Shown: one piece after another, positions 1 to 24,706 of the stretch | Numbering within the stretch: the first letter of the stretch is position 1 | Layout of the letters: every line of letters starts with the position of its first letter | Virus record (IMG/VR): IMGVR_UViG_3300037584_001076 | Span: 1 to 25,814 of that record | Source: a virus | Reading direction: 5' to 3' (one strand) | DNA length: 25,814 nucleotides | Translations under genes and position numbers: made by a program | The notes under the pieces: generated by a model | Seen by the model: only the letters and a program-made list of their open reading frames with translations | Databases searched by the model: none | Told to the model about the DNA's origin: nothing

Positions 1-1746
1 TACCTCAAGGTCGTCGGCGCTTGCTAGTTCAAGACCCCCGTGAAAAAGCTTGAATCTCTCATCTTGTACGGAGTTGTCAGAACCTGTTTCTGTTCCCTCC
101 GGGAACGGCTTGAACTTTCTGTTGAACTCTATCTTACCCCTTTGGTCTGTGTAGTTCGGGATAATCATCGCTCTTGAGCCCTCTACATTCCACTCAATCT
201 CCACCTCCCCTGCAACACCATAGCCATCTTGAGGAATCTGATTCATGTTTAGCACAACCTCAATCCTGTTGGCATCACCCATACCCCAAGCCATATTTGG
301 CTCGACGGTTCCGCCCTCGCCGGTGTCGCCTTTGGATGTAATAGCCCAAGGGACTCGCTGAGTGTCACCGTCAAATATCTCTCCCTCGAAACTGTCTGCG
401 CTGCCGTCTTTTTCTCTTACAAAGTATCCGCCTAAATTTTGAACTTGCCCAAGGTTATTGCCTGCCGCAAGGTTGTCGCCTACACCGGGCTCTACGTGCA
501 GGAAAGGAGAGTACTGTGTTTTGTGAGTGAACAAAGACCTGTATGCGTATTCTGTTTCCTCTAGCTGATTTGTTACTGTGACGCCAGCTCCCGGACTGTT
601 GGCTGGCAGCTCTTCAATGCCCGCCTGCACAGGGAACGAATGAGACGTAAGGTTGCTTCCCTTAATAGAAGCTGGCCAAGTGGTGGCGTCATACCCGTCG
701 ACATAGTTGCCCATGAACAACCTGTTCTCTGAAACGCACAAAGATTTCGCCTGATAAGGAACGTTATCAAACATCTTGTTTACCTCTGCATCACCTACAA
801 TTCTGTAGGCTTTAGAGTTGGTAAAAAATGAGCTTGACCCGAAGGATGTGTAGTCGGTGGGTCTTTCATCAAAGACCTGCCAAGCGCCAGTGTTTCCACT
901 CCTAGCAAGAAATCTAACTGCCTTAATGTCTCCGTCCAAACAGTCCCCACCACTGGCGTCGTTGAGGGCCCTAGCCTTATTTACCTCCACGTTAATCGCA
1001 TCAAACTGCGTTAAGTACAGGTCCGTCATTGTACCCGTAGGATTAAAGTGGTCCTCGTAGTACGACAGCTTGGAGTAAGGTCCGATAGCGGAAACCTCCC
1101 CGTCTACATAAACGTACTGCGCGGCAAACTGAAAGACGTTGTCCACGATTCTGTTTACCACAGTCTCATCTTCCCCAGCCTGAACAAACTCAAAGGTAGG
1201 CGGGCGCATGGGTGGCCTCTTACATACCGTGATTGCATTGGATGCGCCGACGACATTGTTAATGGATGCATCGTAAGAGCCGGAAAGCAATCTGCTGACG
1301 TTAACCTTTCTTGGCTCGTTGAAGTTGTCTGTGAAGTAAAGCAGGATGTCTCCGTTGCCCATCTTCACAACCTCACTTTGGATGTGAGAGTTTTTTTGGA
1401 AGTTCAACACTTCACCTTGATACAGCTTCACGTAGTGATGCTCCGCTGTATCGTACATGTAGATTCCGTGCTTGTCGCTGCTGTTCCACAGGTAATAGAA
1501 AACCACACCACCTGCGTCGTAATTTACGCTAGAGATAATATGATTTTGGCCCACGGATGGAACCGTGTCACTCGAGCCTTTGGCAGGGGCTTCTCTGTTT
1601 CCCTGAGCTTGCTTGATGACACCAGCATCTTCTTCGTCGGCTACGGAGATGTCAATGTTCAGGTTGTCAGTCATTTGGACAGCCTGCACCAAGCGCTCAT
1701 CGTCATCCATGTTCAGATAACGAGGTGTCAGTTTATCAATAGCCAT
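1..1746 (-). CDS. Large virion protein, probable tail nozzle/muzzle (partial, cut by left edge)
   Basis: The reading frame is open from the ATG at 1746 to position 1, giving at least 582 residues without a stop. The C-terminus lies outside the window. The N-terminus (MAIDKLTPRYLNMDDDERLV, followed by a TDNLNI and AGVIKQAQGN stretch) has the layout seen in podoviral nozzle proteins such as T7 gp12 relatives: a short lead, an acidic decision segment, a 'list of variables' strand, then a Gly/Asn-rich turn into beta-rich sequence. The rest is rich in beta-type segments and aromatic residues, with no membrane segment or signal peptide. The start codon shares one base with the stop of the upstream adaptor-like gene (TGATG), suggesting coupled translation. 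Its place after two ring-like proteins fits a distal tail tube part. Function is inferred from context and pattern; a large structural protein of another kind is possible. Confidence 0.6.
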   Translation of the reverse strand, partial: MAIDKLTPRYLNMDDDERLVQAVQMTDNLNIDISVADEEDAGVIKQAQGNREAPAKGSSDTVPSVGQNHIISSVNYDAGGVVFYYLWNSSDKHGIYMYDTAEHHYVKLYQGEVLNFQKNSHIQSEVVKMGNGDILLYFTDNFNEPRKVNVSRLLSGSYDASINNVVGASNAITVCKRPPMRPPTFEFVQAGEDETVVNRIVDNVFQFAAQYVYVDGEVSAIGPYSKLSYYEDHFNPTGTMTDLYLTQFDAINVEVNKARALNDASGGDCLDGDIKAVRFLARSGNTGAWQVFDERPTDYTSFGSSSFFTNSKAYRIVGDAEVNKMFDNVPYQAKSLCVSENRLFMGNYVDGYDATTWPASIKGSNLTSHSFPVQAGIEELPANSPGAGVTVTNQLEETEYAYRSLFTHKTQYSPFLHVEPGVGDNLAAGNNLGQVQNLGGYFVREKDGSADSFEGEIFDGDTQRVPWAITSKGDTGEGGTVEPNMAWGMGDANRIEVVLNMNQIPQDGYGVAGEVEIEWNVEGSRAMIIPNYTDQRGKIEFNRKFKPFPEGTETGSDNSVQDERFKLFHGGLELASADDLEV

Positions 1747-5157: not shown

Positions 5158-6600
5158 TTAGGACTTAATCAACACGTGTTGATTTGCAGCACGAGTAACC
5201 AATGCACACTCAGAACGGTAGTTGAATCTAGCCGTGTCCTCAGTCGCATTACGGAATCCGAGGATAGAACCAGTCACCCAGTGCTCCAACTCACGAGAGT
5301 ATCCACCTGCAGCCTTGTAGTTCAACTCCAAAGCAGGAGAGCGGTCACCAGTAGTTGGGTCAGTCACTGTAGCCAATGGGCACATCACACCAGAAACGAG
5401 CTTCTGTTGGATGTCGGCGTCAGCACCCAAGAGAGTTGGGTCGTTCAACAACTTCCAGCTGTGCTTGTGGAACGTGTATCCACCGCGAGAGAATGAAGAG
5501 AAACCGAGCTGTACAGCCATGTCAGGTGAGTTCTGGAACGCACCGTAAGAGGCGGTAACACCAGCGATGCCAGCCTTAGAAGAACCACCACCCTGAGCGA
5601 CCATGTCGTCGAGGAGCAAGTTCTGCTTGGTGTTGGCGTAGATGGCGTACTCAGGAGCAGAGCCCTGCTTGTCAAACTCAGTGATGAGGTCATCCAAGTC
5701 AGTGAATCCACCGTCGTTTCCAATCATGCTAGAGGTAACCAAGCCACGGTCTTCGAGAGCAGTGATGTAACCTTCGTTGCCGCTCATAGTCAATGCTGCT
5801 GCAGCATCGCTGGCAACTTCTTGACCGAACAAGAGAGTCATTTCACGCTTGTCCAAGAAACGCTGGCGGGCATCCATCTCGCCCTTGATGTACCAACGGT
5901 AGTCACCACCTCCGACGTCGATGTAGCCGATGTTGGTAGCCTGTGAACCCGTCACCTCAAAGTTACCCTTGACGATGGCGTAAGGCTTCTGGTAGCGAAC
6001 CACGTTAGACTCAATAAAGCGTCCGGGCTGGTCGCTGCCTTCATCGAATACGTTACCGATGATTGGCATCTCGTGTACAGTGTTTTGAGTAACCTCAACA
6101 GTTGGGTTATTCATGTATGCACACGTGAACTCTGTGCTGTTGTTGGCAGCACCCTCGCTAGTTACAACGAGACGGTCCTTACCGTTGATGAGCAAGATGT
6201 CACCCTCCATTGGAGTGTGAGCACGGATGTCAGCATCAATAGCGGAAGGAGCTGCGTCAGCGACAAAGACCAATGTTTGCCCAGCATCAATAGCTGCAGC
6301 ACCACTTGAATCGTTCTTGGTTGCTGCACGAACCTTTTGGTGCAAACGAGCTTCCTCGTAGTAAGTAACTTTTTCGGCAGAGCCAGCAGCCTTGACGGCT
6401 CCGGTCATACGCAAGAATCCGGTAATGCCCTGATTACCGTAAGTTTTGATGAGCTCGGGGCGTACATCAAGGGCGTTGATAGAGTTCATAAAGTCACCGA
6501 GAGAAGCGTACTTTTCGGGGGTTGCCAAACCAATGTTTGACGCACCACCACCAGTGCTTCCTCCAAGTTGACCATGAACATTAGGCGCAGTAATAGCCAT
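5158..6600 (-). CDS. Major capsid protein (480 aa)
   Basis: This is the best candidate for the shell-forming protein. At 480 aa it has the length usual for crAss-like and related podovirus capsid proteins. The N-terminus is Gly/Ala/Asn-rich (residues 1-30) and leads into LATPEKYASLGDFMNSINAL and a Gly-rich turn; residues 140-200 look like the beta hairpin (E-loop) region. Acidic and aromatic residues are spread evenly and there is no low-complexity tract. It is encoded directly after the proline/glutamate-rich scaffold-like gene (22-nt gap), the order expected for head assembly genes. No delta-domain protease is visible in the window. The identification rests on size, composition and position between scaffold and ring proteins. 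Confidence 0.75.
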   Translation of the reverse strand: MAITAPNVHGQLGGSTGGGASNIGLATPEKYASLGDFMNSINALDVRPELIKTYGNQGITGFLRMTGAVKAAGSAEKVTYYEEARLHQKVRAATKNDSSGAAAIDAGQTLVFVADAAPSAIDADIRAHTPMEGDILLINGKDRLVVTSEGAANNSTEFTCAYMNNPTVEVTQNTVHEMPIIGNVFDEGSDQPGRFIESNVVRYQKPYAIVKGNFEVTGSQATNIGYIDVGGGDYRWYIKGEMDARQRFLDKREMTLLFGQEVASDAAAALTMSGNEGYITALEDRGLVTSSMIGNDGGFTDLDDLITEFDKQGSAPEYAIYANTKQNLLLDDMVAQGGGSSKAGIAGVTASYGAFQNSPDMAVQLGFSSFSRGGYTFHKHSWKLLNDPTLLGADADIQQKLVSGVMCPLATVTDPTTGDRSPALELNYKAAGGYSRELEHWVTGSILGFRNATEDTARFNYRSECALVTRAANQHVLIKS

Positions 6601-9081: not shown

Positions 9082-9387
9082 TTACCACTTGACTTTGTTG
9101 GCCCAGTAGGCGGCGCTCATCTTGCCCTTCTTGATATTTCTTGAGTGTCTTGACTTGAAGCTTGCTCGCTTCTTCTTCATCTTGTCGGACTCTCCTGATT
9201 TTGGTTTGCCAGCGGTCTTAGCGCCCTGCTCGCCGAAGCGGATAAGCTTAATCTTGTCCCCTTCTTTGGCCAATACAATGTGAGACTTCTTCGGGTGACT
9301 TGGAGTCCTCTTGGCTTTGTTTACACCGCTGAGCCCGTGCTTCTTGAGCATGCGCTTGATTCGCGCTCTCATAGCTTCCTTGCTCAT
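9082..9387 (-). CDS. Small basic phage protein (101 aa)
   Basis: The 101-aa product is very rich in Lys and Arg. It contains the core KSHIVLAKEGDKIKLIRFG followed by Gly/Lys-rich and RASFKSRHSRNIKKGKMSAA segments, ending in YWANKVKW. I recognise this layout from many marine phage genomes, where it sits in head gene clusters; to my knowledge it has no settled function. The basic character suggests contact with DNA or RNA in the head. The ATG overlaps the portal stop by ATGA, so it is translationally coupled to the portal gene. High confidence that it is a gene; its function is unknown. Confidence 0.85.
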   Translation of the reverse strand: MSKEAMRARIKRMLKKHGLSGVNKAKRTPSHPKKSHIVLAKEGDKIKLIRFGEQGAKTAGKPKSGESDKMKKKRASFKSRHSRNIKKGKMSAAYWANKVKW

Positions 9388-11822
9388 CGTCTCATAAGTT
9401 CTTGGATGATGTCCCTATTGTCTTGGTCCTCAAGCTCAGGGCGCGAGCCCTTGCGCTGAGAGATGAGCTTGGACTGAGCCACAGCCTGCTTGTCAACGCG
9501 AGAGTCCTTCCTGTCATCCTTGCTCTTTTCAAGTTCCATACGGAACTGCTTGTCAGCTGCTTGGGTCTGTGCGTTCATTTGCATCTTGGCCATTTGCACC
9601 TGACCATCCATCTGCTGGCGAGCCTGAAGAATCTGAAGCTCGACTTGACCCTGAGCTTGAATCTTCTGCATGTCAATCTGACCCTTCATCTGGACTTCTT
9701 GCATGCGGAGCTGAGCAGCGGCCTGCTGAGACTGCATGTTCACCTGCGCTTGCATCTGCATTTGTTGTTGCTGCTGCTGCTGCAAGGCGGCGATTCTACG
9801 CTTGCGCCTGATGATGAGGAGTCTTTCCGCTTGGTCCAAATCTTTAAGACGGCGGATTGCCATAGCGTCCTCAAGGTCAATCTCTCTTTGTGCAAGTGAC
9901 TGCTGGATGTTTTGTTCGAGTAACAATTTGGCTTCGTCTGACATCTCTCGTTCCACAATCACACCGTAGTTGTGAAGTGGCAGAGAAGCAAACGAAGAAA
10001 GTACTTCCATGCTGGTAGTTCCGATGGCTCTTTCGTACGCCTCGTAGATGATTGAGTCAGGAGGCAGAACCTGCAAGCACTTCACCACGTCATCGCACAC
10101 TCTCTTGTACAAGACAGATGCTCCGTTGGTGATGTCATTGATTGCGTTGTTTCCTGCAGCGAGTTGCTGTTGGCGCACGCCTACAAGAGCGTCAGCCTTT
10201 GGTGAGCTACCATCAAGAACCTCGTTTACACCCGTGACGTCACGAATCATGCGGAGGTAGTGGTTATACAAACCAATCAGCTCGTTGATGTTTCGGATGG
10301 TGTTGTCAAGAGGACGAACAGGTGGGTTTTGGAATCCACCTTCTGGGTTCTTGCTTCTGTAGTAGAAGACACCAGTCTGCTCGTAGATGTCTTGGATGTC
10401 GAGCGGTTGAAGCTCTCCTCCTGCACCAAGCTGCACATTCTCCAAACCCTCGATGTCCACAATCAATCCATCAGGCTTGGCCTTAGCGATGGCTTGTTGA
10501 ATCTTGAGGTGGGTAAGCTGGAGCTGGTCAGCAAAGCCGATGACAGATGACACCATAGACTTGGGCATCTGACGACGGAAGTTCGTGGCGACTACGCTGT
10601 ACGAAAGACGAGCACGAGTCAGGTCGTGCATGTTCTTGGGGATGTCCTTCTTCATGCCATACCCGAACAACAGGCCGCTACCAATGACGTAGGAACCGCC
10701 GTACACACACATGTTTGGCATGGTGTGAATCTTTCTGTCGTAGACAGAGTCGTTAGGGAGCTTGTAGGTTTCGCCCTTGTAATAGAAACCGATGTTGCCG
10801 AACTGCGAGGTCTTCTCCTCGTAAATCATATCATCGACACCAAGGAACTCAAAGTCCAAGACGTCGACCAAGTATTCGTCGTAGCCGTAGACGTGAGTGC
10901 CGCGAGTTCTGTCGTAAACAGTTTGGTTGAACTGAGCCGCGTTATTGTAGGTGCGGTTCATCACAGCCTTCGCAATCTTCTTGTACTCCTCCTCCGGGAT
11001 GTCAGTCCCAGCAACTCTCTTGAGCTCTTGGATGGACATGCGCTTGACATGCCCAGCGTATACGATGTCAGAGAAGTTGGGGTCCTCCGTGCTGGAGTGG
11101 ATGAACTGAGCGGGGTCTACATACTCCGTCTTGATTCCGTAACTCGGGTCGTTGCTCCTCTTAACCACAGCCATGCCGTTGACCACAAGGTCCTCCACAG
11201 CTCTACGGAATACGACGTCATCAAAGTCATTCCAATCAAGAGTAAGTTTAGTAGCAAGTTGAGCAGCCACCTCAGCACTAGTCTTGATACTATCAGCCAA
11301 GTAAATCTCAGCCTCCTCGCTGTTGTCGGGGAGCCCCTCTGGCACAGCAGCTGTGTTGAGCCCAAGCGACTTAGCTTCCTCAATGACCTCTCTTTCTTCA
11401 ATAGCAAACTTGGCTAGAATCTTTTTCTTCTCCTTCTCGTCCTTTGACATAGGGTCAATCGCCTCCACATTGGGGCGGAACTTGCGAGAAAGAATCTTGT
11501 TTACTACAATCCGAACAAACTTGGGGACGACTGGAACTGGTGACCAATCGAGGTTAAGCAGCGTTCCGTCACCCGCTTGGGTGTCCATGCTGTTTAGGAT
11601 TTGTTTGTAGATTGATGTATCTTGCGTACCGTTAGCGTAATCTCTGTTTCGATTAAACTCGACGAGTCGCTTTCCGAACCCGTGAGAAAAATCGTCGAGG
11701 CCTCCCCACTGTGCCTCGATAGATTTAGCGTAAGCGATGCCGTAGTCCTTGCTTGCCTTAACGCTCGCTGGCGCCATAGGGTCTGGGAACTGGGAATACG
11801 ACTTTGGCTTGTGACCCTTCAT
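9384..11822 (-). CDS. Portal protein (812 aa) with long Gln/Met-rich C-terminal helix
   Basis: At 812 aa this matches large portal proteins of crAss-like and other Bacteroidota podoviruses. Portal features include the N-terminal lead, then a wing segment with YVDPAQFIHS at about 240, RRQMPKSMV near 430 and long helical regions. From about residue 680 the protein becomes a Q/M-rich coiled coil, beginning with seven consecutive Gln and continuing with MQxQ-type repeats for about 90 residues; a basic tail (SRVDKQAVAQSKLISQRKGS) follows. This could form the barrel or crown that reaches into the head. It is encoded directly after TerL, with a promoter-like element in the gap at 11847. The start ATG at 11822 lies in an AT-rich leader. 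The stop overlaps the next gene by ATGA. Confidence 0.85.
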   Translation of the reverse strand: MKGHKPKSYSQFPDPMAPASVKASKDYGIAYAKSIEAQWGGLDDFSHGFGKRLVEFNRNRDYANGTQDTSIYKQILNSMDTQAGDGTLLNLDWSPVPVVPKFVRIVVNKILSRKFRPNVEAIDPMSKDEKEKKKILAKFAIEEREVIEEAKSLGLNTAAVPEGLPDNSEEAEIYLADSIKTSAEVAAQLATKLTLDWNDFDDVVFRRAVEDLVVNGMAVVKRSNDPSYGIKTEYVDPAQFIHSSTEDPNFSDIVYAGHVKRMSIQELKRVAGTDIPEEEYKKIAKAVMNRTYNNAAQFNQTVYDRTRGTHVYGYDEYLVDVLDFEFLGVDDMIYEEKTSQFGNIGFYYKGETYKLPNDSVYDRKIHTMPNMCVYGGSYVIGSGLLFGYGMKKDIPKNMHDLTRARLSYSVVATNFRRQMPKSMVSSVIGFADQLQLTHLKIQQAIAKAKPDGLIVDIEGLENVQLGAGGELQPLDIQDIYEQTGVFYYRSKNPEGGFQNPPVRPLDNTIRNINELIGLYNHYLRMIRDVTGVNEVLDGSSPKADALVGVRQQQLAAGNNAINDITNGASVLYKRVCDDVVKCLQVLPPDSIIYEAYERAIGTTSMEVLSSFASLPLHNYGVIVEREMSDEAKLLLEQNIQQSLAQREIDLEDAMAIRRLKDLDQAERLLIIRRKRRIAALQQQQQQQMQMQAQVNMQSQQAAAQLRMQEVQMKGQIDMQKIQAQGQVELQILQARQQMDGQVQMAKMQMNAQTQAADKQFRMELEKSKDDRKDSRVDKQAVAQSKLISQRKGSRPELEDQDNRDIIQELMRR
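9762..9782 (-). repeat. Trinucleotide CAA/CAG tract in the portal gene
   Basis: Seven Gln codons in a row (four CAG then three CAA on the - strand) start the Gln/Met-rich helix of the portal protein. Such tracts can slip in replication; the mixed CAG/CAA codons would reduce this. Confidence 0.9.
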
Positions 11823-11862: not shown

Positions 11863-14004
11863 TCACTTAGAGGGTTTTGAGAGCCCGCCCGGTGTGTAAG
11901 TGTATTTGCGGAAAAACTTTTTGCCTGTAAAGTCAGCCGCTTTTTTCTTCTGTACGACAGTCTGTGCAGCAAGCAACGCAAGCCCCGCACTAATTGTCAA
12001 GTCAAACTTTGTTCTGTTGTCAATTCTGTACCCAATCCAATCCTCTAGAGTTCGGTTGAAATACATCCTACCCACCTCACCCTTCTCGTTGATTCCCACG
12101 TGATTGTGTATGTAGTCCTCAATAGATTGTGCATGTGTGTGGATTACATCCTGTGAGTTAGACGGGATTCCCTTGGTCTTAGTTACAACAGACCCTGCCG
12201 TAGTAAGGTGTTGTGGTCTGTCAAGTAGATAGCCATCGTAACCCCTTGATTCAAAGTACCTTACGATACCGTACTTGTTGTTCTCCACGAGGAGTGGGTA
12301 GCCAAAGAAGAAGGACGCCATCAACACATCCTCGTAGAAAATTTTTGCCATAGGAGGGCGGGAGCAGTACTCTGCAACAAACATGTTAGAGGGGGCCCGC
12401 ATGTTGAACTTGTTGTAGATGTGACACGCTCCCTTTGAACCCCTTCCGTCTGTAGTAGCGTCGATGTCATAGGAGTCAACACCACCACAGCCAATCAGTT
12501 TGTTTGGGGCTACAAGCTTGCCCCTTTCAGTAATCTTTTGATTCCTGAGGTCAAGAGGAGGCATCCAAGACACAAACCACCTGCCCTCTGAAGTAGGAAC
12601 AAACACGACCTCCGTGTCTCTAACGCCCCCCTTCCATGTGAAGTTGCCACGCACAACGGGGTCTGGATACATGTTTTCGTTGTGGTCAATCTGCTCGTAA
12701 ATCTTTCCGATGTTGAACAGAGAGCCCTCGACGCTATCACGGAACGCCTCGTCTGTAGTAAAGGGGAACTGGCGAACGATTTCGTTCATCTCCCGAGCGT
12801 CATGCCTTAGAGCGTCCCTTTCGTTTTTTAGAAACTCCCTTGCGCCTATCTCTACGGTTTCCCCGTCCAGTGTTTCTATCTCCTGCTCCGGACTCTCGAT
12901 GATTGGTTTCCCGTACTTGTCGAAGAAGCCCTCTAAGGCTTCGTAAGCCGGAATAAAGATTTTGTACAATCCTGAGGTTGTCCTTCCGTTTTTGTTGCGT
13001 TCTTGTGGGTCTGAATCTTTCCAAAGCTCTTTGTATTCTTGACCTCCTTTGTCCATCGGGTTGACGGTGCTGCCCACAAGCGCCTTCCCGATAACACGGC
13101 GTCCCACAATCAAGCAAGTCCGTTGTATCCTCCATGCTTCTCTGATGTCTGTTGGTTTCTCCCACTTGCCTGCCTCATCGAGATACAAGATATGTAACTT
13201 CTCGCCATCGTAGGCATTGTTAGTGGTATTCTTCCAGTTGATGATTGTGTTCAGGGCGTCCCCTTTGATAGAGGTCTTGTTGTTTTTGGTAATCCTTTTG
13301 GACGGTTCTCTGAACGCCAACTCCATGCGCGGGTTGGTGGTACCGTCTTGGATAGGCTTAAAGAAGAACGGGTAGGACTTGAAGATAGCAACGACCTTCT
13401 TCATGAAGACGTTCTCCTGCGCGTCCTTACCCGTCTTCGACTGGATACCCAAAAGTTTGTCCTTGACCTGTGTGGCTTCGTCTACAAGAACGCAGGCGGA
13501 CATGTTGGTATACCCTGAGCGACGACACTTGGTATACAGTTGACCAAGGCATCTGGGGTCAGCCTCACACGCGGCCTGATGGACGAAGAGCTTACGTTGG
13601 AAGTCTAGGAAACTAGGATAGCCAATATCTATCTTGCTCCACTGAAGCATCATGTAGTGACGTCCAGTGACATAGGTAGGTTCTCCGTTGTTGTAGAACC
13701 AGTACCCTTCTCTGCGCCTGCGGAACTCCTCCTCGATAAAGGGAGAGAACCTTTGGCGAAACTCCTTGGGCATTTCATACCACTCGTCCATAGACTTGAT
13801 GCGAGCAAGCTCACTAGGCATCTCTGTCCTAGCCCAAGTCTGTAGGTGGGTGGGTAGGTCGTACCCTGCAATGTCTTTCTTTCGGGGCTGCTTAGGCAAG
13901 CAGATAGGTAGACCAGAGATGTCGATGACGTCTCCAATAGTGCCGCGCGGGCAAATGGATACGACTGGTTCGTCGTACTTCTCTATGTCTATCAGCCCTG
14001 TCAC
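11863..14004 (-). CDS. terL: Terminase large subunit, TerL (713 aa)
   Basis: This is the packaging ATPase-nuclease. Numbering from the chosen start: a NNGEPTYVTGRHYMMLQW segment near 105-122, typical of TerL N-termini; a variant Walker A (CRRSGYT) at 160-166; a Walker B plus catalytic Glu (LYLDEAG) at about 273-279; and a coupling GST near 311-313. In the nuclease half, acidic residues in GVDSYDID (Asp about 510) and LLVENN (Glu about 574) fit the RNase H-like metal site. An open frame reaches further up to an ATG at 14124, but its first 40 residues are the shadow of the upstream 97-aa gene. The GTG at 14004 overlaps the TGA of that gene (GTGA), giving 713 aa and classic translational coupling. 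The stop at 11863 is followed by a gap with a promoter-like element before the portal gene. Confidence 0.9.
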   Translation of the reverse strand: MTGLIDIEKYDEPVVSICPRGTIGDVIDISGLPICLPKQPRKKDIAGYDLPTHLQTWARTEMPSELARIKSMDEWYEMPKEFRQRFSPFIEEEFRRRREGYWFYNNGEPTYVTGRHYMMLQWSKIDIGYPSFLDFQRKLFVHQAACEADPRCLGQLYTKCRRSGYTNMSACVLVDEATQVKDKLLGIQSKTGKDAQENVFMKKVVAIFKSYPFFFKPIQDGTTNPRMELAFREPSKRITKNNKTSIKGDALNTIINWKNTTNNAYDGEKLHILYLDEAGKWEKPTDIREAWRIQRTCLIVGRRVIGKALVGSTVNPMDKGGQEYKELWKDSDPQERNKNGRTTSGLYKIFIPAYEALEGFFDKYGKPIIESPEQEIETLDGETVEIGAREFLKNERDALRHDAREMNEIVRQFPFTTDEAFRDSVEGSLFNIGKIYEQIDHNENMYPDPVVRGNFTWKGGVRDTEVVFVPTSEGRWFVSWMPPLDLRNQKITERGKLVAPNKLIGCGGVDSYDIDATTDGRGSKGACHIYNKFNMRAPSNMFVAEYCSRPPMAKIFYEDVLMASFFFGYPLLVENNKYGIVRYFESRGYDGYLLDRPQHLTTAGSVVTKTKGIPSNSQDVIHTHAQSIEDYIHNHVGINEKGEVGRMYFNRTLEDWIGYRIDNRTKFDLTISAGLALLAAQTVVQKKKAADFTGKKFFRKYTYTPGGLSKPSK

Positions 14005-15109: not shown

Positions 15110-15424
15110 TTAGTTGAGGTTGAAGCCTAGGTCGTCTAGGTCGATGTCATCTATGTCGATGTCATTATCTTCAGATACTTTCTCGTAAGAAGCCATGATG
15201 GCTGTGAACAGCTCGGCAAGTTCTTCCGAGCTATCTACGTGCCATTTGCTGGCCACCTGCCAAGCAGGTCCAATCTCTGGGATGTCGTCAACAAGCCCGA
15301 GACCAAAGAGGTAAGCCACCCTTTCATTTACTTGATACTTCTCGATGACGTCTTCAAGCTGCGCCAAGACGTCGGCTACTTCTGAGATGAAGAGCTCCTT
15401 CAGGGTGGGGTCCATGGTTGTCAT
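15110..15424 (-). CDS. Acidic helical protein of unknown function (104 aa)
   Basis: The 104-aa product is strongly acidic, with a C-terminal Asp/Ile repeat (DNDIDIDDIDLDDLG). Residues 1-80 are helical and contain a W-V-A-S-K-W segment. There is no signal peptide or membrane segment. The ATG shares one base with the TAA of the fibre-like gene (TAATG). A role as an inhibitor, chaperone or DNA mimic could be guessed from the charge, but there is no evidence for any of them. Confidence 0.75.
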   Translation of the reverse strand: MTTMDPTLKELFISEVADVLAQLEDVIEKYQVNERVAYLFGLGLVDDIPEIGPAWQVASKWHVDSSEELAELFTAIMASYEKVSEDNDIDIDDIDLDDLGFNLN

Positions 15425-16305
15425 TATTGTCCGTTAATTGCTGCGATAGAGGTTGGCGTAGTTGAGTTCCCGATAAGAGTTCCGGTAACAAACCAGCCTG
15501 ATTCATCGTAGCAGGTAAGCTCTAGGCAGCTACCAGCTGCACCACCAATGTTGTTATGGTCTTGGTCTAGAGTAATTTGATTGTGCGTAGACACAGCGGC
15601 GGCTGCGGTTGCACGCAGGACTCTTTGTACAGAGACCTTGTTGTCTGTAGTAGACACGTGGGTGATTGCCCCGTAGAAGTAGTCCCCAGAAGCGGCATTG
15701 ATGTTGCAGGCAGTGTTAGAGCCTACGTCAACATAAATCCTAAAGAACCTGCCTTCAGTCGCTGCGGGAAGTGTTACGGTGTCTCCCGCAAGAGTGGTGC
15801 AATCCAAAAAGACTGTTTTACCAGAATCACTGCGAGCGCTAAGGCTTGTGGTTGAAGTAACCTTCTTTACGCCTCTGAGGTCGTACTTCGTGGTAACTGT
15901 CCCGCTTGTAGAAGTAAGGTTAATGTTCTGCCCCGATTGAAGGTTCACTGTAGATGCGTGACCTGACGAGTCTGTGACAGTAATGCCAATCCCGGTGCCG
16001 CTTCCATTGGAGGTTGAGCTTGAGCTTGCGCTCATCTGAACAGTCTTCAGGTTCGGCAAGGTGCGAGTACTAATCAATCCAGTAGAAGAATCTCTCACCA
16101 GAATTTCGTCGCTTGTAGACCTCGCTGGAGAATCAATCAGAAGATTCGTTACCTTTACCTGAGATGTAGACACAGATAGAGCAGTGTCGGTTCCCTGACC
16201 ATCAGTGATGACTTTAAGAGAGCCGCTGGCGCTACCGTTGTCGGTTGTCTTGAGGATTCCGACGTAGCTTGTTTTGATTTGAGTGCCTGATAGTGACGTT
16301 CCCAT
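15424..16305 (-). CDS. Fibre-like or surface structural protein (293 aa)
   Basis: The open frame extends upstream to 16389, but those 28 residues lie under the start of the opposite-strand gene. The ATG at 16305 gives MGTSLSGTQIKTSYVGILK, a start often seen in marine phage fibre or surface proteins, and has a promoter-like TATATTTG 19 nt upstream. The protein is very rich in Ser, Thr, Gly and Asn, with repeated short beta-type segments and a DSSTG turn near 85. From about residue 150 it has a distinct domain beginning with a VTSTTSLSARSDSG-type segment and containing FRIYVDVGS; its end is Gly-rich. No catalytic motif is visible. It may be a tail fibre, head fibre or decoration; which one cannot be decided here. 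Confidence 0.6.
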   Translation of the reverse strand: MGTSLSGTQIKTSYVGILKTTDNGSASGSLKVITDGQGTDTALSVSTSQVKVTNLLIDSPARSTSDEILVRDSSTGLISTRTLPNLKTVQMSASSSSTSNGSGTGIGITVTDSSGHASTVNLQSGQNINLTSTSGTVTTKYDLRGVKKVTSTTSLSARSDSGKTVFLDCTTLAGDTVTLPAATEGRFFRIYVDVGSNTACNINAASGDYFYGAITHVSTTDNKVSVQRVLRATAAAAVSTHNQITLDQDHNNIGGAAGSCLELTCYDESGWFVTGTLIGNSTTPTSIAAINGQ

Positions 16306-16324
16306 CTTGTTTTTTTTGTCTACA

Positions 16325-16338: not shown

Positions 16339-16785
16339 ATGAAGAGACACAGACCTGAGCGCAAAATGCGGGAGTTCTCGTACCTCCACGAGAAGTACGT
16401 CAACAAAAACTACCTCAAGTACCTACGGCTGGCAGAGGCAGATATGGCGCAGCATTACGACGTCAGGCCAGTAGAGATGCAGGTGATGTTGTTTGGATAC
16501 GACTATGAGTTCTTTACGGCTACGCACATAGCAGAATCATTGTTTGCATCACCCAAGAAGTTCAGGGAGCGCACGCTGCAACCGATGATGAAAAAGGGGT
16601 TGATACATGTAGTGCATCGCAGGTTTAACGTGGACACGGGCTCAGAAGCCGACATGTACTTCGCTGAAGAAGCAAAGACAAACTACAAGCACAGGTACGG
16701 ACTGACGCCTAAGGCTAGGCATATAGTCCAAAGATTCTACCGCAAGCTAGAAGGCGAAGAAGCGATTAAGATTTCTCGTGAGTAG
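16339..16785 (+). CDS. Winged-helix (MarR-like) DNA-binding protein (148 aa)
   Basis: This is the only + strand gene inside the late block. The first 40 residues are basic (KRHRPERKMREF). Residues 40-90 form a winged helix: VRPVEMQVMLFGYDYEFF as the first helix, ATHIAESLFASPKKFRERTLQPMMKKGLI as the recognition region, and HRRFNV as the wing. A C-terminal helix begins YGLTPKARHIVQRFY, the LTxKGRxL pattern of MarR relatives. It is transcribed away from the fibre-like gene across a 33-nt shared region and its 3' end overlaps the 63-aa gene by 20 nt. I infer a transcription regulator of late or its own genes. A strong + strand promoter is not visible; the leader is T-rich. Confidence 0.8.
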   Translation: MKRHRPERKMREFSYLHEKYVNKNYLKYLRLAEADMAQHYDVRPVEMQVMLFGYDYEFFTATHIAESLFASPKKFRERTLQPMMKKGLIHVVHRRFNVDTGSEADMYFAEEAKTNYKHRYGLTPKARHIVQRFYRKLEGEEAIKISRE

Positions 16786-16957: not shown

Positions 16958-17214
16958 CCTTCGTAGTTTAGGTAAGATTCTACATCTACCCACCAGTCCC
17001 CTGACTCATCGTTTAAGATGTCCAAGACTTCAGAGTGGGTATAAACGGTAAGAGACTCAGCTCCGCTAGGAGTAGTGTCTGAGTCCCATCGCAAAAGACA
17101 CTTGTCTGTGTTTCTAACAGTCTTTCGCATTGCATCCGTACCGTTGTCCACGGTTGCTGCCGCCATAGAGGGCGTGACAGATGATGTCTGGATAATAGCG
17201 TACTTCCTGCTCAT
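16954..17214 (-). CDS. Small protein of unknown function (86 aa)
   Basis: The 86-aa product begins SRKYAIIQTSSVTPSMAAA, has a DAMRKTVRNTDKCLLRW segment, then a Ser/Thr/Asp-rich middle, and ends DILNDESGDWWVDVESYLN. It looks like a small alpha-beta fold with one Cys. The ATG overlaps the LamG stop and its TGA overlaps the next ATG, both as ATGA, so it is in a chain of coupled genes. It may assist the LamG protein or be a small virion component; I cannot tell from sequence. Confidence 0.75.
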   Translation of the reverse strand: MSRKYAIIQTSSVTPSMAAATVDNGTDAMRKTVRNTDKCLLRWDSDTTPSGAESLTVYTHSEVLDILNDESGDWWVDVESYLNYEG

Positions 17215-18023
17215 GATGGTACGTCGTCTGTAAAGGTTGCTCCTGTGATGGTCAAGTTATTGCTGTTGCTGCTGGAGTCGTTCCCGTTGTCTTCAAGTCT
17301 CCAATAGCCAACCAGTCCTGACCTCGATGATTCATCAGCGGGCACTCCGCTGTTGTAGATAGCTGATACATCAGAAGAACTCAACTCGGAGTTGTAGATT
17401 GAAAGCTCATCAACCTCAATTTGGAAGAACGAATCAGAACCTAAATTAAACGTAGAAGAACCTATAGCGATGTCTCCAAGGCTTGCACCGCTAAAGTCGA
17501 CGCTGTTTGAAGTCTGTGTTACGGCTATCTCCGAGCCATTGATGTACAGCTTACCTGTTCTAGAGCTTGCTCCAGCGTCACAGGTAATCAGACAATGATG
17601 CCAAGTGTTATCTCCAACAGAAGAACGTAAATCGTTGTTTGATGTTAAAGTTAAAAAATCACTGCTAGAGGCAACGCCACCTCCAATTTGTAACGAAATT
17701 TTTCCGGGAAGGCTACCAGCCGCAGAGTCTCCATACGCAGTCATAATAAAGCCTGTGAGGCCGCCTCCCGGAAAGAAGAGGGAGTTCCACAGAATAGGGG
17801 TAGCACCACTTCCAACAGGGAAGAAATCAGCCTTCTTTACCCACCAAGATATGCTAAAGTCACCCGCGCCAATCAGTCCGAGTATCGTTGAGTTCGAGGC
17901 CCAACGAGCTGCATCATTGGTTCCGTCAAAGCTTAGAGACTTGGTGTTAACCAAACCTCGAGATACTACGCGACGAGTCTTTTTAGAACGTCTGCGCCTT
18001 GATGTGTTAGCTAGTGTTTTCAT
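17211..18023 (-). CDS. LamG/concanavalin-like surface protein (270 aa)
   Basis: The ATG at 18023 overlaps the TGA of the giant gene (ATGA). An upstream in-frame ATG (18077) lies inside that gene and is less likely. The chosen start gives an N-terminus with a striking basic run (RRRRSKKTRR, about residues 9-18), then a LamG/concanavalin domain from about residue 28: KSLSFDGTND, FSISWWVKK, NTWHHCLITCD, KLYINGSEI, IEVDELSIYN and AIYNSG. It ends in a strand-rich GYWRLEDNGND segment. Such jelly-roll domains bind sugars or surface polymers in phage tail fibres and in host adhesins. Its coupling to the giant calcium-loop gene suggests the two are made together. Ligand and virion location are not shown. 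Confidence 0.85.
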   Translation of the reverse strand: MKTLANTSRRRRSKKTRRVVSRGLVNTKSLSFDGTNDAARWASNSTILGLIGAGDFSISWWVKKADFFPVGSGATPILWNSLFFPGGGLTGFIMTAYGDSAAGSLPGKISLQIGGGVASSSDFLTLTSNNDLRSSVGDNTWHHCLITCDAGASSRTGKLYINGSEIAVTQTSNSVDFSGASLGDIAIGSSTFNLGSDSFFQIEVDELSIYNSELSSSDVSAIYNSGVPADESSRSGLVGYWRLEDNGNDSSSNSNNLTITGATFTDDVPS

Positions 18024-21000
18024 GGTGTAGGTGGTGGGGGTGCCCCTCCTGTTTCTGTATACCCTTGTGGTGACCAACCCTCTCCGAAGTAGTCTTCTGG
18101 GTCAAGGTCGTCATAATCAAAGTCAACCCATACTCCGTCGAGTAAGTATCCGTATTGTCCGGACTGAGGGTTCCCAGCTCCGCCAAACCCTCCAAAGAAC
18201 GCTTGGAACTGAGAAACATCGGAGCTTCCGGTCAACTGGCCATTGCCATCAAGGTCTAGGGCATCAAACTCAGGGCTTCCCGGGCTGTATGCCCCAGATT
18301 CAATTAAGTCAATGTAGAATGAAATGTCATCGGCAGTAAAGAACCCATCGTTGTTAAGGTCTGGGTCGTCGTACAACTCAATGAACTCAAGAAGCTGAGG
18401 GTAGAAAAATACTTGGAATTGGGCCAGTGCATCTTGCGGAAGTGTTCCGTTTATACTGTAGTTTTGAAGCCCCTGATATAAGGTCTGAGCCTGCAGTCCG
18501 CTGTACAGTTCGTTGACAGCAATGTATTCACCGTTCGGGCCAAGGTAGAAGGCTCCTTGTATAAGCGAACCTGCAAGTGCCCCAATAATACCTGTATCAC
18601 CAGTTCCTTGTACGTCACCAACTATCATCTGCCATTGCCCTAACGTGCTTACTGCTGAATCCGAAATTGGGTTGACAAGGCTGACGATGTATTGATTGTT
18701 AAAGGCATCAACGTCAGCACTGAGGATGCCAAGCATGACAAAAGGCTGGAACAGCAAGAACAAGGCGTTCTCTTCGCTCGTAGCCTCCCCATTGCTGATG
18801 GCGCTACTGACAAATTGGTTTATCAAGTTGTACGAGCCCATGTTGTTCATCAACTCCAAAAACAATACCTGCATGTCGATAGAGCCTCCAGCTCCATTGA
18901 TTGCAAGTATTTGCTCTTGAATCATTATGGAGAGCTGAGCATACAGATTGATTTCTCCTTCGTTGATTACGCCATCGCCGTTGAAGTCAAGCTCCTGAAC
19001 AGCCAACGCATTGGTGTTCACTAGTGAGTCGATGTAGCTTGTTGATGAAGCTGCCTCAAGAGCGTCTAAGAGTGAGCCCGAAGTTAAACTCCCAAGACCT
19101 GTAACAATAGGGACCAATGATGCTTCCCCTGTGTAGTTGCCAGCAGACACAAAGAACTCGTTGGGGTTGATGTTGTTCTGCAAGTAAAAGTCCGAGTACT
19201 CGTTCATCGCAAGCTCGTCCGGCAAAATCTGCTGAAGGATGTTGGAGATGGTGGTCCATAGAGCATTGTCACCTTGAAACGACTGGCTGTTCAAGTCGCC
19301 CCACGAAGACGCCCAATCTGGGTCTACTAGGTCAAAGAAGGCGGAGGTGCTGTTTGCTGCGACTGCATCAGCGCCAGTAGTTTCAATGCCCATTAGGAAG
19401 GTGTACCATGCGGGCGTTTGACCACCAGACTCGACGTAATCGTTAGCATATTGGAACACCAAAAAGTGAGCCAGAGCATACGCAGGGTCAAAGCCAGTAT
19501 AGAGGGCGTTGTCTGAACCGTACACAGAGCCACCTGCCGCATAGGCATTGAAACCCTCTAGGTTGTCGGCTGAATAAGCTTGGGGGTTAAAGCTACTCCA
19601 AAACGCATCACCCTGCGTAACGAAACCACCGTACCACAAACTTTCAGGGCCTATCCCTTCGTCGTTAAATTGTCCACCTGAACCGAAGGAAGTCTGAGTG
19701 CTGTAAAATGCAGACCAGCCAATTCCAACGAAGCTGCTGAAGTAAACACTGTAGTTTCCCCATGAAGTTCCGTTGGCGGCAGAGTCTGCTCCAGTTATCA
19801 TCCACCCGTAGAGGTGAAGGAAGTCTGCAAGTCCGACGTTACCATCTCCGTTGAAGTCAATCATACCTCCTGTTCTTTCCAAGAAGTTAGGAAGGTCAAT
19901 GTACGTGCCGTTGACAGCGGCCCCCTCGTTAGGTGCAACTCCGTAAAGCTGCATGACGTTTTCGCTTGGGTTCTGTACAAACGACGGTGGGGGTGGTGGG
20001 ATGTAGAACGGAGTGCTGTCGTTGAATGCGTTGTACGAGTACAGGAAGTCGTTAGACGTCAGGTCCAGATTGAAGTTGTAGAACTGCACGTCAAATCCGT
20101 AGGGACCGCCGCTTTGATAAAACGCGTAGTCTTCGTAATTGTCTCCCGGCTCCCAACCAGCTGGTGCCCAAATGACACCTTCACCTACAGGGTAATACAC
20201 ATCTGCTCCTGTGTTTGGGTCAGTGTACCCAACGAATCCTTGGAAGCCAGCATAAAGCCAGTTGGCAAATGATTGATTATCAGCGAGGAACCCGTTGTTT
20301 GGGTCAAGCATATATCCCTCAAGGGCCGCAGAGTCTACTGCATCGAAGCCTAGATACTGAAACACTGAATCAAAGCTGTACTGCAACGATGTACTGGATG
20401 TCCCGAAGCCAGCCGAAAAGCCATTGTTGGACTGGCTCTGGTGACCAAGCACCTGAGCAAGAAGCATCATAGCTCCTCCTTGCGCCATGTAGTCGTACGT
20501 TTCGGTAGACTCTTGTCCGAGAATGTTTGCAAAGTCTGGAATGCCACCCACACCGTTTACCCAATCAGAACATTGATTGAGCAGAAAGCTGCCCAAAAAC
20601 TGAAGGTTATTGGCTGCTTGGCCAACCACTACAGCTTGCTCCTCAAAGTCAAACACATCAAACAGCTCTGGCGTAATGTCAGCGACAGTATTTACGGCAG
20701 GGTGGTTAGAGATTAAGTAGTCTACAACAGATTGGTCTAGTAGGGCAGGGTCGTAGCTTCCATCGCCATCGGGGTCAAAAAGATTTGCACTTACCCAACT
20801 TGCAATCTGTTGATTAAAGGCCTGTTGCTGGACAGTAACCAATCCGGGGCTCGCCCACTGTGGCCAAGATGCAGTTGCAAGCTGCGCGTAGTTAGCGTCA
20901 AAGCCACCATCAATCCAAGGCTGGATGGCATTGGCAAGAGCCATGTACCACGTTGGCACCTCTGACTGAAGGTCATCGGATAGTCCGTAAGCCTCGCCCC

Positions 21001-22357
21001 AAACGGGTCTTTGGTCGGCCCAGTTCAGCTGGATAAGTTCAAAAATCTCGTCTTGCTCTTGCTCTTCGACATACGCATCCACATCTCCTGAGTCCAGAAG
21101 GTTAAAGATGAGTGGTGGGTTCTCTGCAACATTGTTGATGTTGAACAGGTTCTGCGTATCATCCCACTCACCGTTGGTGCTGAAGTACATATTGCCCCCA
21201 GCCATCTCCACACCGTAGTAGGTGTAGTACGCAATAATTTGGTCGATGTCAGCCTGAGAGAACAGGTTGTTCGTTTCAGAGATAGTGCCCGCACCAGAGA
21301 CAGCAGACACCATCTCGGTGAAGTCTGCCCATGCCGCGATGTCAGCACCATTAAAGGTGCCGTCGTTGTTTACGTCGAAGATGTTGCCAGAGAACGGGTT
21401 GTAGTCTGCGTCGTTGACAGATACATCAAAGAATCCGAGGCCAGCGCCTTGAGAGTCAATGAAGTTCATCATGTCTTGGAAGTTGCTGTCGCTGTATCCA
21501 AGCGGGTCTCCTGCGGCGTTTGACATAAAAACATCCGCGTAGATGTTCATGATTGGCAGCATGTTTGCATCGAACCATGCACCCAAGTCCTCGAGGTCGG
21601 CCTCGGTGGGCTGTGGGTTCATAAGTAGGGTGTCGAAGAAGTCTGCTGGAACTTCACCTTGGTACGCATCAAACACAGCGTCTAGTGCAGATGAGTACAA
21701 AGTCGTCTCTAAAGAGTTGGTCCAATCAATCGGAATGGGGATAAAGCCGTCGACGTTTGCTGCTGCGTCGTCTTGAGCAGCCATGTAATCTGCCCAAGTC
21801 AGTAGTGACTCTGCAATGCCGTCTTCTGTTGGGGTGTAGTAAACGGGTCCATCCGAACCACCAGCACCTGAATAGCTTATTCCTTGGTTGTAGAAGAGTC
21901 CGTAGCCATTCTCAAAGGAGTTTTGATAACCGCTTTGGTTCCAAAACAATCCCTGAAGTCCACCGAGCGGGTTAGAACCGCCCTCCAAAACACCCTGACC
22001 GACAACTGTCATGAAGAAGTCGATGATACCTGCGACGTCAAGAATGTCTAGTGTTCCGTCACCGGACGTATCCATGTTACCACCCTGAAGAGCGATGGCG
22101 TTCTCAAACGCGTCAATAGCCTGCCTGTACGATTCCGGAAGCTGTGGAGCTTCTTGAACTGGCGGGTCAGGGATTGGTGGCGGGACTACATCGTCGTCGT
22201 CCTGCTGCTGATTCGCCTTTTGGTTTGACAGCAGATAGGAAGAGTAATCGTCACGAGCTGCCGTAACGTCACGCTTCTTTACTTCAGGGCCTAGCGGGCG
22301 AGCCTTCTCGCCGTGCTCTGGGTCGCGGAAGGTCGCCGATAGCTTCTTCAGCTTCAT
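18020..22357 (-). CDS. Giant lysine-free protein with seven EF-hand/dockerin-like calcium loops (1445 aa)
   Basis: This 1445-aa protein is the longest gene here and belongs to no family I can name. Residues 1-50 are basic and hold the segment TFRDPEHG (9-16), shared with the 167-aa protein upstream. After residue 48 I see no Lys and only three Arg; Asp, Asn, Gln, Gly, Tyr, Phe and Trp dominate, so it is very acidic. Residues 50-76 are Asp/Pro-rich. DxNxDG-type loops occur near residues 96 (DTSGDGTLDILD), 327 (DVNNDGTFNGAD), 527 (DPDGDGSYDP), 833 (DFNGDGNVGLAD), 1123 (DFNGDGVINEGE), 1332 (DLNNDGFFTADD) and 1366 (DLDGNGQLTG). Each is followed by a helix, as in dockerins and EF-hands. A recurring P-x-WY-x-x-L pattern suggests internal repeats. 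It has no signal peptide and no recognised enzyme motif. The stop overlaps the LamG start. It may be a calcium-stabilised fibre, adhesin or internal virion protein. Confidence 0.8.
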   Translation of the reverse strand: MKLKKLSATFRDPEHGEKARPLGPEVKKRDVTAARDDYSSYLLSNQKANQQQDDDDVVPPPIPDPPVQEAPQLPESYRQAIDAFENAIALQGGNMDTSGDGTLDILDVAGIIDFFMTVVGQGVLEGGSNPLGGLQGLFWNQSGYQNSFENGYGLFYNQGISYSGAGGSDGPVYYTPTEDGIAESLLTWADYMAAQDDAAANVDGFIPIPIDWTNSLETTLYSSALDAVFDAYQGEVPADFFDTLLMNPQPTEADLEDLGAWFDANMLPIMNIYADVFMSNAAGDPLGYSDSNFQDMMNFIDSQGAGLGFFDVSVNDADYNPFSGNIFDVNNDGTFNGADIAAWADFTEMVSAVSGAGTISETNNLFSQADIDQIIAYYTYYGVEMAGGNMYFSTNGEWDDTQNLFNINNVAENPPLIFNLLDSGDVDAYVEEQEQDEIFELIQLNWADQRPVWGEAYGLSDDLQSEVPTWYMALANAIQPWIDGGFDANYAQLATASWPQWASPGLVTVQQQAFNQQIASWVSANLFDPDGDGSYDPALLDQSVVDYLISNHPAVNTVADITPELFDVFDFEEQAVVVGQAANNLQFLGSFLLNQCSDWVNGVGGIPDFANILGQESTETYDYMAQGGAMMLLAQVLGHQSQSNNGFSAGFGTSSTSLQYSFDSVFQYLGFDAVDSAALEGYMLDPNNGFLADNQSFANWLYAGFQGFVGYTDPNTGADVYYPVGEGVIWAPAGWEPGDNYEDYAFYQSGGPYGFDVQFYNFNLDLTSNDFLYSYNAFNDSTPFYIPPPPPSFVQNPSENVMQLYGVAPNEGAAVNGTYIDLPNFLERTGGMIDFNGDGNVGLADFLHLYGWMITGADSAANGTSWGNYSVYFSSFVGIGWSAFYSTQTSFGSGGQFNDEGIGPESLWYGGFVTQGDAFWSSFNPQAYSADNLEGFNAYAAGGSVYGSDNALYTGFDPAYALAHFLVFQYANDYVESGGQTPAWYTFLMGIETTGADAVAANSTSAFFDLVDPDWASSWGDLNSQSFQGDNALWTTISNILQQILPDELAMNEYSDFYLQNNINPNEFFVSAGNYTGEASLVPIVTGLGSLTSGSLLDALEAASSTSYIDSLVNTNALAVQELDFNGDGVINEGEINLYAQLSIMIQEQILAINGAGGSIDMQVLFLELMNNMGSYNLINQFVSSAISNGEATSEENALFLLFQPFVMLGILSADVDAFNNQYIVSLVNPISDSAVSTLGQWQMIVGDVQGTGDTGIIGALAGSLIQGAFYLGPNGEYIAVNELYSGLQAQTLYQGLQNYSINGTLPQDALAQFQVFFYPQLLEFIELYDDPDLNNDGFFTADDISFYIDLIESGAYSPGSPEFDALDLDGNGQLTGSSDVSQFQAFFGGFGGAGNPQSGQYGYLLDGVWVDFDYDDLDPEDYFGEGWSPQGYTETGGAPPPPTP
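22311..22334. repeat. 24-bp near-identical repeat, copy 1 (TFRDPEHG codons)
   Basis: These 24 bases match 22743-22766 with two differences. They encode the TFRDPEHG segment near the N-terminus of the giant protein. The match suggests a recent duplication or conversion of the gene starts. Confidence 0.85.
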
Positions 22358-22360
22358 GGC

Positions 22361-22864
22361 TTACTTCTTTCTGTTGTCCCGCAACATTGCAACAAAGTCA
22401 GCGGGGTCCATTACGGAGAAGCCGCCTTCTTTGAACTTCTTCATCATCATGCCCTTTTCGGCCTTCATGTCTTTCCTCTTGAGCATCATGCCCTCCTCAC
22501 CAGTCTGCAGCGGACCAGCACCTGAGCCTGAGATGTCTGCACCCTCGATTCCCGGGAGTTCAACATCGTCGCTGTAGTTTGCAGTCTGAGTCTGCACACC
22601 AGTCTCCTCGTCAGTAGTTACCGTGTAGCTCTGAATCGACCCGGGGATGGTGATAGGCTGGTCGGCAGTATACGGGTCACCCATTGCTGTAGTGCCAGTA
22701 AACTTGCGCTCTACATCAGAGGCCAGTGGCATGGATGGTGAACCGTGCTCGGGGTCTCGGAAGGTCCCGCTGCTAGTGGCAGCTGCTTTCTGGGTCATCG
22801 CCTTGCGCTGAGCCATCTTGTTCATTGCGGGCATGCCGCCCTCTTGCATCTTCTTAGTTCTCAT
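22361..22864 (-). CDS. 167-aa protein sharing an N-terminal module with the giant protein
   Basis: The 167-aa product is mostly disordered in appearance, with many Met, Lys and Gly near both ends (KKMQEGGMPAMNK and GMMLKRKDMKAEKGMMMKKF). It holds TFRDPEHG at 34-41, followed by SPSMPLASDVERK, which aligns with EKARPLGPEVKKR in the giant protein. The middle is Thr/Gly/Asp-rich, and the end reads FVAMLRDNRKK. The ATG overlaps the DUF5675-like stop (ATGA) and the stop lies 3 nt before the giant ATG. A role as partner, adaptor or chaperone of the giant protein is my inference from the shared module and the spacing. Confidence 0.75.
   Translation of the reverse strand: MRTKKMQEGGMPAMNKMAQRKAMTQKAAATSSGTFRDPEHGSPSMPLASDVERKFTGTTAMGDPYTADQPITIPGSIQSYTVTTDEETGVQTQTANYSDDVELPGIEGADISGSGAGPLQTGEEGMMLKRKDMKAEKGMMMKKFKEGGFSVMDPADFVAMLRDNRKK
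22743..22766. repeat. 24-bp near-identical repeat, copy 2 (TFRDPEHG codons)
   Basis: 22 of 24 bases match 22311-22334. Both copies are in coding sequence, in the same reading frame and at equivalent positions in the two proteins. Confidence 0.85.
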
Positions 22865-23355
22865 AAGTTCAGTTTTGCGATGATAACATCATTGAGGTCG
22901 ATGTACTCGATGCGAACATCTTCCCCGTTGTTGAGTGCTTTTAGAATTTTTGGGTACACTCTCTTGTACGCCTGTGTTGACTTGCCAATGAATCCATCAT
23001 CCACGAGCTGGTTGTTCTCTTGGCTGTCACCAAGTAGAAGACATCCTGCTGTGTGCTCGTCTGTGTTGCCACAGTGGATGAGGATGTATTCAAAGTTAGG
23101 TACATCTCGCACCCAGAGCATGCCCTCATGGATGTCGGGAAACCGCTCGGCGTACTTGGCGTCAAACCCGCCCTCGGTCCGGAGCGTGATGTCGTATGTC
23201 CCATCAGGGATTCGCGTCTCGCCCCGCTTCTTTCTCTTGCGCTCTTCGTCCTCCAAAGTGTAGCACAGGAACTCTCGCCCATCAGGCAACAGCTCAACCA
23301 AAATACCGTTGGTCGAGTCTCCGCTATCTGAGAACCGGAGTACCTGAAGGTGCAT
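22861..23355 (-). CDS. DUF5675-like protein, probable lysis or peptidoglycan function (164 aa)
   Basis: The 164-aa product fits the DUF5675 layout: a short MHLQVLRFSDSGDSTNGIL lead, a C-Y-T-L-E-D-E segment, a GETRIPDGTYDITLRT strand, HEGMLWVRDVPNFEYILIH and then the signature HCGNTDEHTAGCLLLG (about residues 93-108), in which a His and a Cys sit in the order seen in L,D-transpeptidase-like domains. Family members are common in phages near lysis genes, but their activity is not firmly established. There is no signal peptide. It lies between the 95-aa gene (TAATG junction) and the 167-aa gene (ATGA). A lysis role is my inference. Confidence 0.75.
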   Translation of the reverse strand: MHLQVLRFSDSGDSTNGILVELLPDGREFLCYTLEDEERKRKKRGETRIPDGTYDITLRTEGGFDAKYAERFPDIHEGMLWVRDVPNFEYILIHCGNTDEHTAGCLLLGDSQENNQLVDDGFIGKSTQAYKRVYPKILKALNNGEDVRIEYIDLNDVIIAKLNL

Positions 23356-24564: not shown

Positions 24565-24706
24565 CAGCGCCGCGAAAAAGTCCTGAGAAATGTGTGGGGT
24601 GGGGATTATGTCTATATGTACACGTGCGTCACGTCGACCGGAAGTCGTTTAATCCTAGTGGGGGGGTAGGGTTTACACGTTTGTATTGCAGAAACTTCTA
24701 GCGTTT

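Follow-up and report, generated by a model that had tools for sequence, protein, structure and literature searches.

The locus and its late genes

The window analyzed here, i.e., the whole stretch of DNA, is a 25.8-kb viral record of a marine phage, in which the recognizable late genes are, all but one, encoded on the minus strand (Table 1). Its nearest cultured kin are Elemovirus, the Cellulophaga phages phi38:1 and phi40:1 and other marine Bacteroidota phages, with 27-32% identity. Between a lysis-type gene and the terminase large subunit (TerL) gene a giant acidic protein of 156 kDa is encoded, with a pI of 4.05 and a net charge of about -178. At the corresponding slot, phi38:1 carries an endosialidase-chaperone fibre and a tail protein, and in the relatives G001 and G002 no other obvious fibre gene was seen. 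A 148-aa protein encoded on the opposite strand within the late cluster (16339-16785, plus strand) is 88-98% conserved; it matches Antibiotic_NAT only below threshold and has, judged by eye, the look of a winged-helix regulator. Beyond the late cluster lies a tRNA-Arg (TCT) gene (24491-24565, plus strand).

The giant gene is coupled to a partner gene. The giant TGA and the partner ATG form an ATGA overlap in seven of the eight compared loci (18020-18023 in the window), and in the eighth (L039) the overlap is longer. Every partner whose upstream region is present is preceded by the giant or its end. The partner N-terminus is arginine-rich and conserved, carrying +7 to +11 within 30 residues, while its C-terminal domain is exchangeable, being either a LamG lectin or a 115-residue domain without assignment. 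For the LamG lectin fold, relatives in cyanophages are annotated as tail-fibre connector and carbohydrate-binding module. On the other side, the giant always has a small protein directly upstream. This protein, of 167 aa in the window, has TFRDPEHG and the residues after it in common with the giant and occurs only beside it, as all 11 viral contigs having it also encode the giant. The basic-tagged partner, the tag shared with the upstream gene and the mosaic allele exchange described below are additions to the sequence-only reading of this DNA.

Lys-rich late proteins with GG-then-hydrophobic motifs (KKMQEGGMP, YAAGGTVNEM, KFKEGGFSVMDPADF, FKKGGKVKTG) are encoded in the window (22361-22864, 23355-23642 and 23676-24098) and in relatives (L107:7765-9564 and L062:6568-7122), and the motif MREGGSVDWPP stands before a lytic-transglycosylase-like domain. 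The GG motif has the appearance of a packaging or processing tag that recurs across the giant-bearing phage group.

Table 1. Features of the locus with their positions in the window
Feature	Position	Strand	Remarks
Partial tail-end gene	1..1743	-	full-length relative has crAss muzzle C-terminal domain
Virion structural protein, probable major capsid protein	5158..6600	-	phrog_13704
Portal protein	9384..11822	-	phrog_6547, E 1e-193
Terminase large subunit	11863..14004	-	phrog_6681, E 5e-206
Fibre-like protein	15424..16311	-	N-terminus conserved, C-terminus variable (gene comparison)
Partner gene, basic N-terminal tag and LamG/ConA-like lectin domain	17211..18023	-	start overlaps giant stop
Giant Lys/Arg-excluding acidic protein	18020..22357	-	1,445 aa, late gene; from composition and homologues
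Acidic, aromatic C-terminal tail, conserved	18023..18166	-	residues 1398-1445; WVDFDYDDLDPEDYFGEGW
Recombining hypervariable body	18167..21007	-	residues about 451-1397
Predicted Ca2+-loop 7	18218..18256	-	residues 1368-1380; DLDGNGQLTGSSD; second half of dockerin-like pair
Predicted Ca2+-loop 6	18326..18361	-	residues 1333-1344; DLNNDGFFTADD; first half of dockerin-like pair
Predicted Ca2+-loop 5	18953..18988	-	residues 1124-1135; DFNGDGVINEGE
Predicted Ca2+-loop 4	19823..19858	-	residues 834-845; DFNGDGNVGLAD
Predicted Ca2+-loop 3	20741..20776	-	residues 528-539; DPDGDGSYDPAL; position 12 Leu here, Glu in L001
Predicted Ca2+-loop 2	21341..21376	-	residues 328-339; DVNNDGTFNGAD; Dockerin_1 half-match
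Predicted Ca2+-loop 1	22037..22072	-	residues 96-107; DTSGDGTLDILD
N-terminal tag MKxKKLSxTFRxxEHGEKAxPL	22217..22357	-	residues 1-47; contains all Lys
Motif common to giant and upstream 167-aa protein	22292..22333	-	TFRDPEHGEKARPL; second match, E 0.001
167-aa Lys-rich protein with TFRDPEHG motif	22361..22864	-	directly upstream of giant
DUF5675 protein	22861..23355	-	phage relatives annotated peptidoglycan hydrolase

Exclusion of positive charge from the giant body

The sequence-only reading had stated that beyond residue 48 the giant has no lysine and only three arginines, and the residue count agrees: its seven Lys are located at residues 2, 4, 5, 18, 27, 28 and 47, and Arg occurs beyond residue 48 at 78, 450 and 828 only. 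If Lys were as frequent as in the neighbouring proteins (7.6%), about 1,398 residues without any would have a probability of 1e-48. AAA and AAG occur 80 times across the other two reading frames of the ORF and are absent in the coding frame alone, and a single substitution would turn 319 of the 1,386 body codons into a Lys codon, which argues for selection acting on the protein and not on the DNA. Histidine is depleted as well (4 of 1,385 body residues; P = 1.6e-6 versus the frequency in the neighbouring proteins), so that the rule reads as 'no positive charge' and not merely as 'no trypsin sites'. The negative charge is spread evenly, with -6 to -17 per 100 residues. Adjacent, presumably exposed proteins show no such exclusion (Lys plus Arg 8.4% in the LamG protein and 7.4% in the fibre-like protein). 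The exclusion of positive charge from the giant body is firm, its cause is less certain.

No signal-peptide-like hydrophobic start of the giant was seen; this rules the giant out as a classical Sec substrate and shows no more than that. An internal repeat search found no long tandem domain repeat, and the internal DNA repeats of the gene are mainly recurring loop-coding 19-mers. Relatives encode Lys-poor proteins that do have signal-peptide-like starts (MKPSLLLLLLAPFVSYSQTC; L111:16704-17228, L044:500-1705 and L049:1904-3112), and these are possibly phage-made host-surface proteins.

Loops of the EF-hand/dockerin type

Seven loops with the canonical EF-hand pattern, i.e., ligand positions 1, 3, 5 and 12 plus a hydrophobic residue at position 8, are predicted in the giant. 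D.[DN].[DNG]G is matched by six of them and D.[DN].DG by five, where shuffled sequences would yield 0.6 and 0.18. For most loops the ligand positions (1, 3, 5, hydrophobic 8 and acidic 12) are kept across homologues, and AlphaFold2 predicts, with low to moderate confidence, a helix directly after each loop. The count of seven given in the sequence-only reading is real, although its residue positions were off by up to two, and profile matches together with the conservation in homologues support the loops as genuinely of the EF/dockerin type, as it had proposed. Its expectation of seven EF-hand/dockerin folds holds for the C-terminal pair, which is dockerin-like, and not for the other five, which are single loops.

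The loops resemble those of type I dockerins (PF00404; the cellulosomal GH48 dockerin 2y3n) in having a DxNxDGxxxxxD loop followed by a helix. The pair at residues 1333/1368 also shows their spacing and aligns to the solved dockerin 2y3n_B with E 2e-6 to 6e-6, and it is only here, at residues 1333-1392, that a two-repeat dockerin arrangement was found. The Pfam Dockerin_1 profile scores 27.2 bits on the whole giant against a cut-off of 22.9 bits, but this score is summed over half-matches; EF-hand_7 remains below the Pfam cut-off. In contrast to type I dockerins, the giant has one pair in 1,445 aa, five single loops and no cellulosome context, and four related records, possibly incomplete ones, contained no cohesin partner at E<=1. 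Pfam results contain no RTX family for the giant, and its loops are EF-type and not GGxGxDxUx nonapeptides. RTX adhesins and toxins, which are giant Ca2+-dependent surface proteins, are acidic chains that can stay unfolded in the Ca2+-poor cytoplasm and fold in Ca2+ after release, a design that the giant may share; the giant differs from them by its EF/dockerin loops, by the lack of a visible secretion signal and by the almost complete exclusion of cationic residues.

Family and structure searches

The claim that the giant belongs to no known family was upheld, as searches in PHROG, NCBIfam and 50,697 phage records returned neither a family nor a homologue, and no described tail-fibre or adhesin family among them matched. 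For one homologue a hit to phrog_13661 (E 0.037) was set aside as weak. No crAss cargo or other crAss family matched in Pfam or PHROG, the bacterial/archaeal genome collection contained no relatives, giving no sign of a host-derived gene, and the literature searched yielded no counterpart, neither a phage dockerin nor a Ca2+-binding virion protein devoid of lysine. AlphaFold2 models of both halves of the giant are poor (mean pLDDT 47.4 and 44.5, from 10-12 sequences); unreliable as they are, they suggest helices and not the beta-fibre usual in tail fibres. With these models as Foldseek queries, neither the N-terminal half in the PDB (best E 1.3) nor the C-terminal half in BFVD (best E 0.48) had a match, which is uninformative and does not speak for a new fold.

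Homologues, variability and recombination

Full or partial homologues of the giant, all metagenomic, were found in IMG/VR scans on about 15-20 contigs of one genus-like phage group akin to Cellulophaga phi38:1, Elemovirus and crAss-tailed phages. They are 1,396-1,767 aa long and share 71% down to 25% identity with the giant of the window. Overall composition is alike, with 0-4 Lys, 3-9 Arg and 14-15% Phe/Trp/Tyr in each full-length body, and even at 25% identity the N-terminal tag and C-terminal tail are retained along with most loops and the Lys/Arg exclusion. Compared to L001, L002 and L003 the body shows 414, 506 and 536 differences; 47-61 changes to or from Lys or Arg were to be expected, and there is none. 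Across the five nearest homologues, 0-2 Lys/Arg changes each were counted among 294-712 differences, with 34-61 expected in the four pairs tested; the expected values are rough, being derived from BLOSUM62, and the other three homologues contribute counts only. Sister phages, whose TerL is about 73% identical, do not have the giant cassette and other proteins fill the slot, so that the giant is accessory.

Conservation is highest at both ends of the giant. In eight homologues, M1, K2, K4, K5, L6, S7, T9, F10, E14, H15, G16, E17, K18, A19, P21 and L22 of the N-terminal tag and W1410, D1412, F1413, D1416 and Y1423 of the C-terminal tail are invariant. In between, no other stretch of the gene block varies as much as the body, which is 52-60% identical to G001, G002 and L001, compared to 92-100% for portal and TerL. 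In the comparison with L001, dS of the first 440 residues is 0.04, the level expected of near-identical core genes; it climbs to about 2 at a sharp boundary from about residue 450, and identity resumes near residue 1398. With dN/dS at 0.14-0.31, the body is best read as being swapped through recombination (allele exchange) under purifying selection. The giant thus appears to combine a hypervariable, recombining body with a conserved attachment end, a trait of phage tail fibres and adhesins.

Per-gene comparison identified as variable the giant body, the partner, the fibre-like gene at 15424, the gene at 4411 and the muzzle, whereas portal, TerL and the lysis-type gene are 92-100% identical in closer relatives. 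Between two near-complete relatives, an internal protein of 2,934 aa, which by its type would probably be ejected, shares 93% identity, compared to 60% for the giant and 49% for the tail-tip muzzle, which shows that the giant varies like an exposed protein. The 239-aa gene following the probable capsid gene (4411-5130, minus strand) is unusually variable, with 60-62% identity to G002 and L003 and 89% to L039; it is a mosaic and perhaps encodes a head fibre or decoration protein.

A putative two-part adhesion device and its alternatives

A host-facing role in the virion is favoured by the way the giant varies, by its lectin partner and by its slot, which holds a fibre in phi38:1, and the fibre or adhesin role proposed earlier would fit the hypervariability and the neighbouring genes. 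We consider the giant a late host-facing virion protein that forms a two-part adhesion device together with its coupled partner, with a probability of roughly 45%. From these observations we infer its location in the virion, Ca2+ loading after lysis, docking of the partner and receptor binding by the latter. The short Lys-rich N-terminal tag would anchor the giant to the particle, and the 167-aa neighbour with the same motif might occupy the same anchor site. The long and uniformly negative body, predicted to be mostly helical and having no positive charge, would bind neither DNA nor RNA nor itself in the crowded, Ca2+-poor cytoplasm. Once lysis frees the giant into the medium, the EF/dockerin-type loops would take up Ca2+ and other divalent ions. 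The acidic C-terminal tail would be the end onto which the partner docks with its strongly basic N-terminal tag, a guess from the complementary charges, and the exchangeable LamG-lectin or other domain of the partner would touch sugars of the host surface. Body and partner would shift through allele exchange as hosts change. In analogy, the tip adhesin gp38 of T2-type phages binds the fibre gp37 via its N-terminal part, while its receptor part is hypervariable (PMC12892980). The giant and its partner may share this shaft-plus-tip logic, with docking presumed here; the likeness is one of logic, and the giant, in contrast to gp37, is predicted to be helical and has almost no cationic residues in its body.

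The predicted helices and the accessory nature of the giant speak against a host-facing role, and the small Lys-rich neighbours with GG motifs could equally be internal proteins. Foremost among the alternatives, the giant may be ejected cargo like the helical cargo proteins that crAss001 keeps in its capsid and tail (PMC10172136). The giant would be packed in the capsid or tail lumen via its N-terminal tag, be cation-free to avoid the DNA, thread the tail unfolded and fold with Ca2+ once it is in the periplasm or in the extracellular space. The mostly helical prediction without a fibre-like beta fold, the tag common to a small Lys-rich protein and the crAss-type muzzle domain encoded by these phages are consistent with it. 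However, these phages encode their large internal protein elsewhere and it varies far less, the giant falls in no crAss family, its slot holds fibres in phi38:1 and a strict coupling links it to the partner, which in some members bears a lectin; a role as cargo is rather unlikely. It is also unlikely that the giant is a late non-virion protein freed at lysis with its lectin partner, acting as soluble decoy, matrix or debris-binder that stops progeny phages from sticking to dead host material. The lack of a signal-peptide-like start, the proximity to the lysis-type gene DUF5675 and the absence from sister phages would agree with this, while the conserved tag, which the 167-aa protein has as well, points to a fixed binding partner, and a position amid the late virion genes would befit a virion part.

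Two further explanations address the composition only. Lys and Arg might be avoided because extracellular trypsin-like proteases cut exposed virion proteins, and the joint exclusion of both residues, with 0-2 changes per nearest homologue, is in line with this; as protection from proteases alone it is very improbable, since His is depleted too and the presumably exposed LamG and fibre-like neighbours show no exclusion. Lysine deserts, i.e., long Lys-free stretches, were described in Mycobacterium phages (PMC10665810), and the roughly 1,400 Lys-free residues of the giant might, as proposed for mycobacteriophages, escape host protein tagging or degradation by a pupylation-like system. Tagging of Lys leaves the depletion of Arg and His unexplained, and the relatives infect Bacteroidota, whereas pupylation is mainly actinobacterial (PMC10665810); this explanation has hardly any credit and was rejected. 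An Ocr-like DNA mimic was dropped, as the giant is far too large, late and hypervariable.

Within the host-facing reading, the giant may even represent a new kind of virion fibre, namely a giant polyanion from which cationic residues were nearly all selected out, which is unfolded in the cell, set by seawater Ca2+ via its EF/dockerin loops and equipped with a swappable lectin tip held by charge between the acidic tail and the arginine-rich tag, but we regard this full combination as quite unlikely.

Implications

Standard trypsin digestion would cut the giant body at the three Arg only, so that such proteins may escape virion mass spectrometry. The near-total exclusion of positive charge, kept down to 25% identity, is a clean constraint at the level of composition and raises the question of whether it protects against DNA binding, against sticking to host debris or against proteases. 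If the host-facing reading is right, phages would be able to face their receptors with a helical, calcium-set polyanion in place of the usual trimeric beta fibre, and this helical part would come with a coupled, exchangeable lectin.
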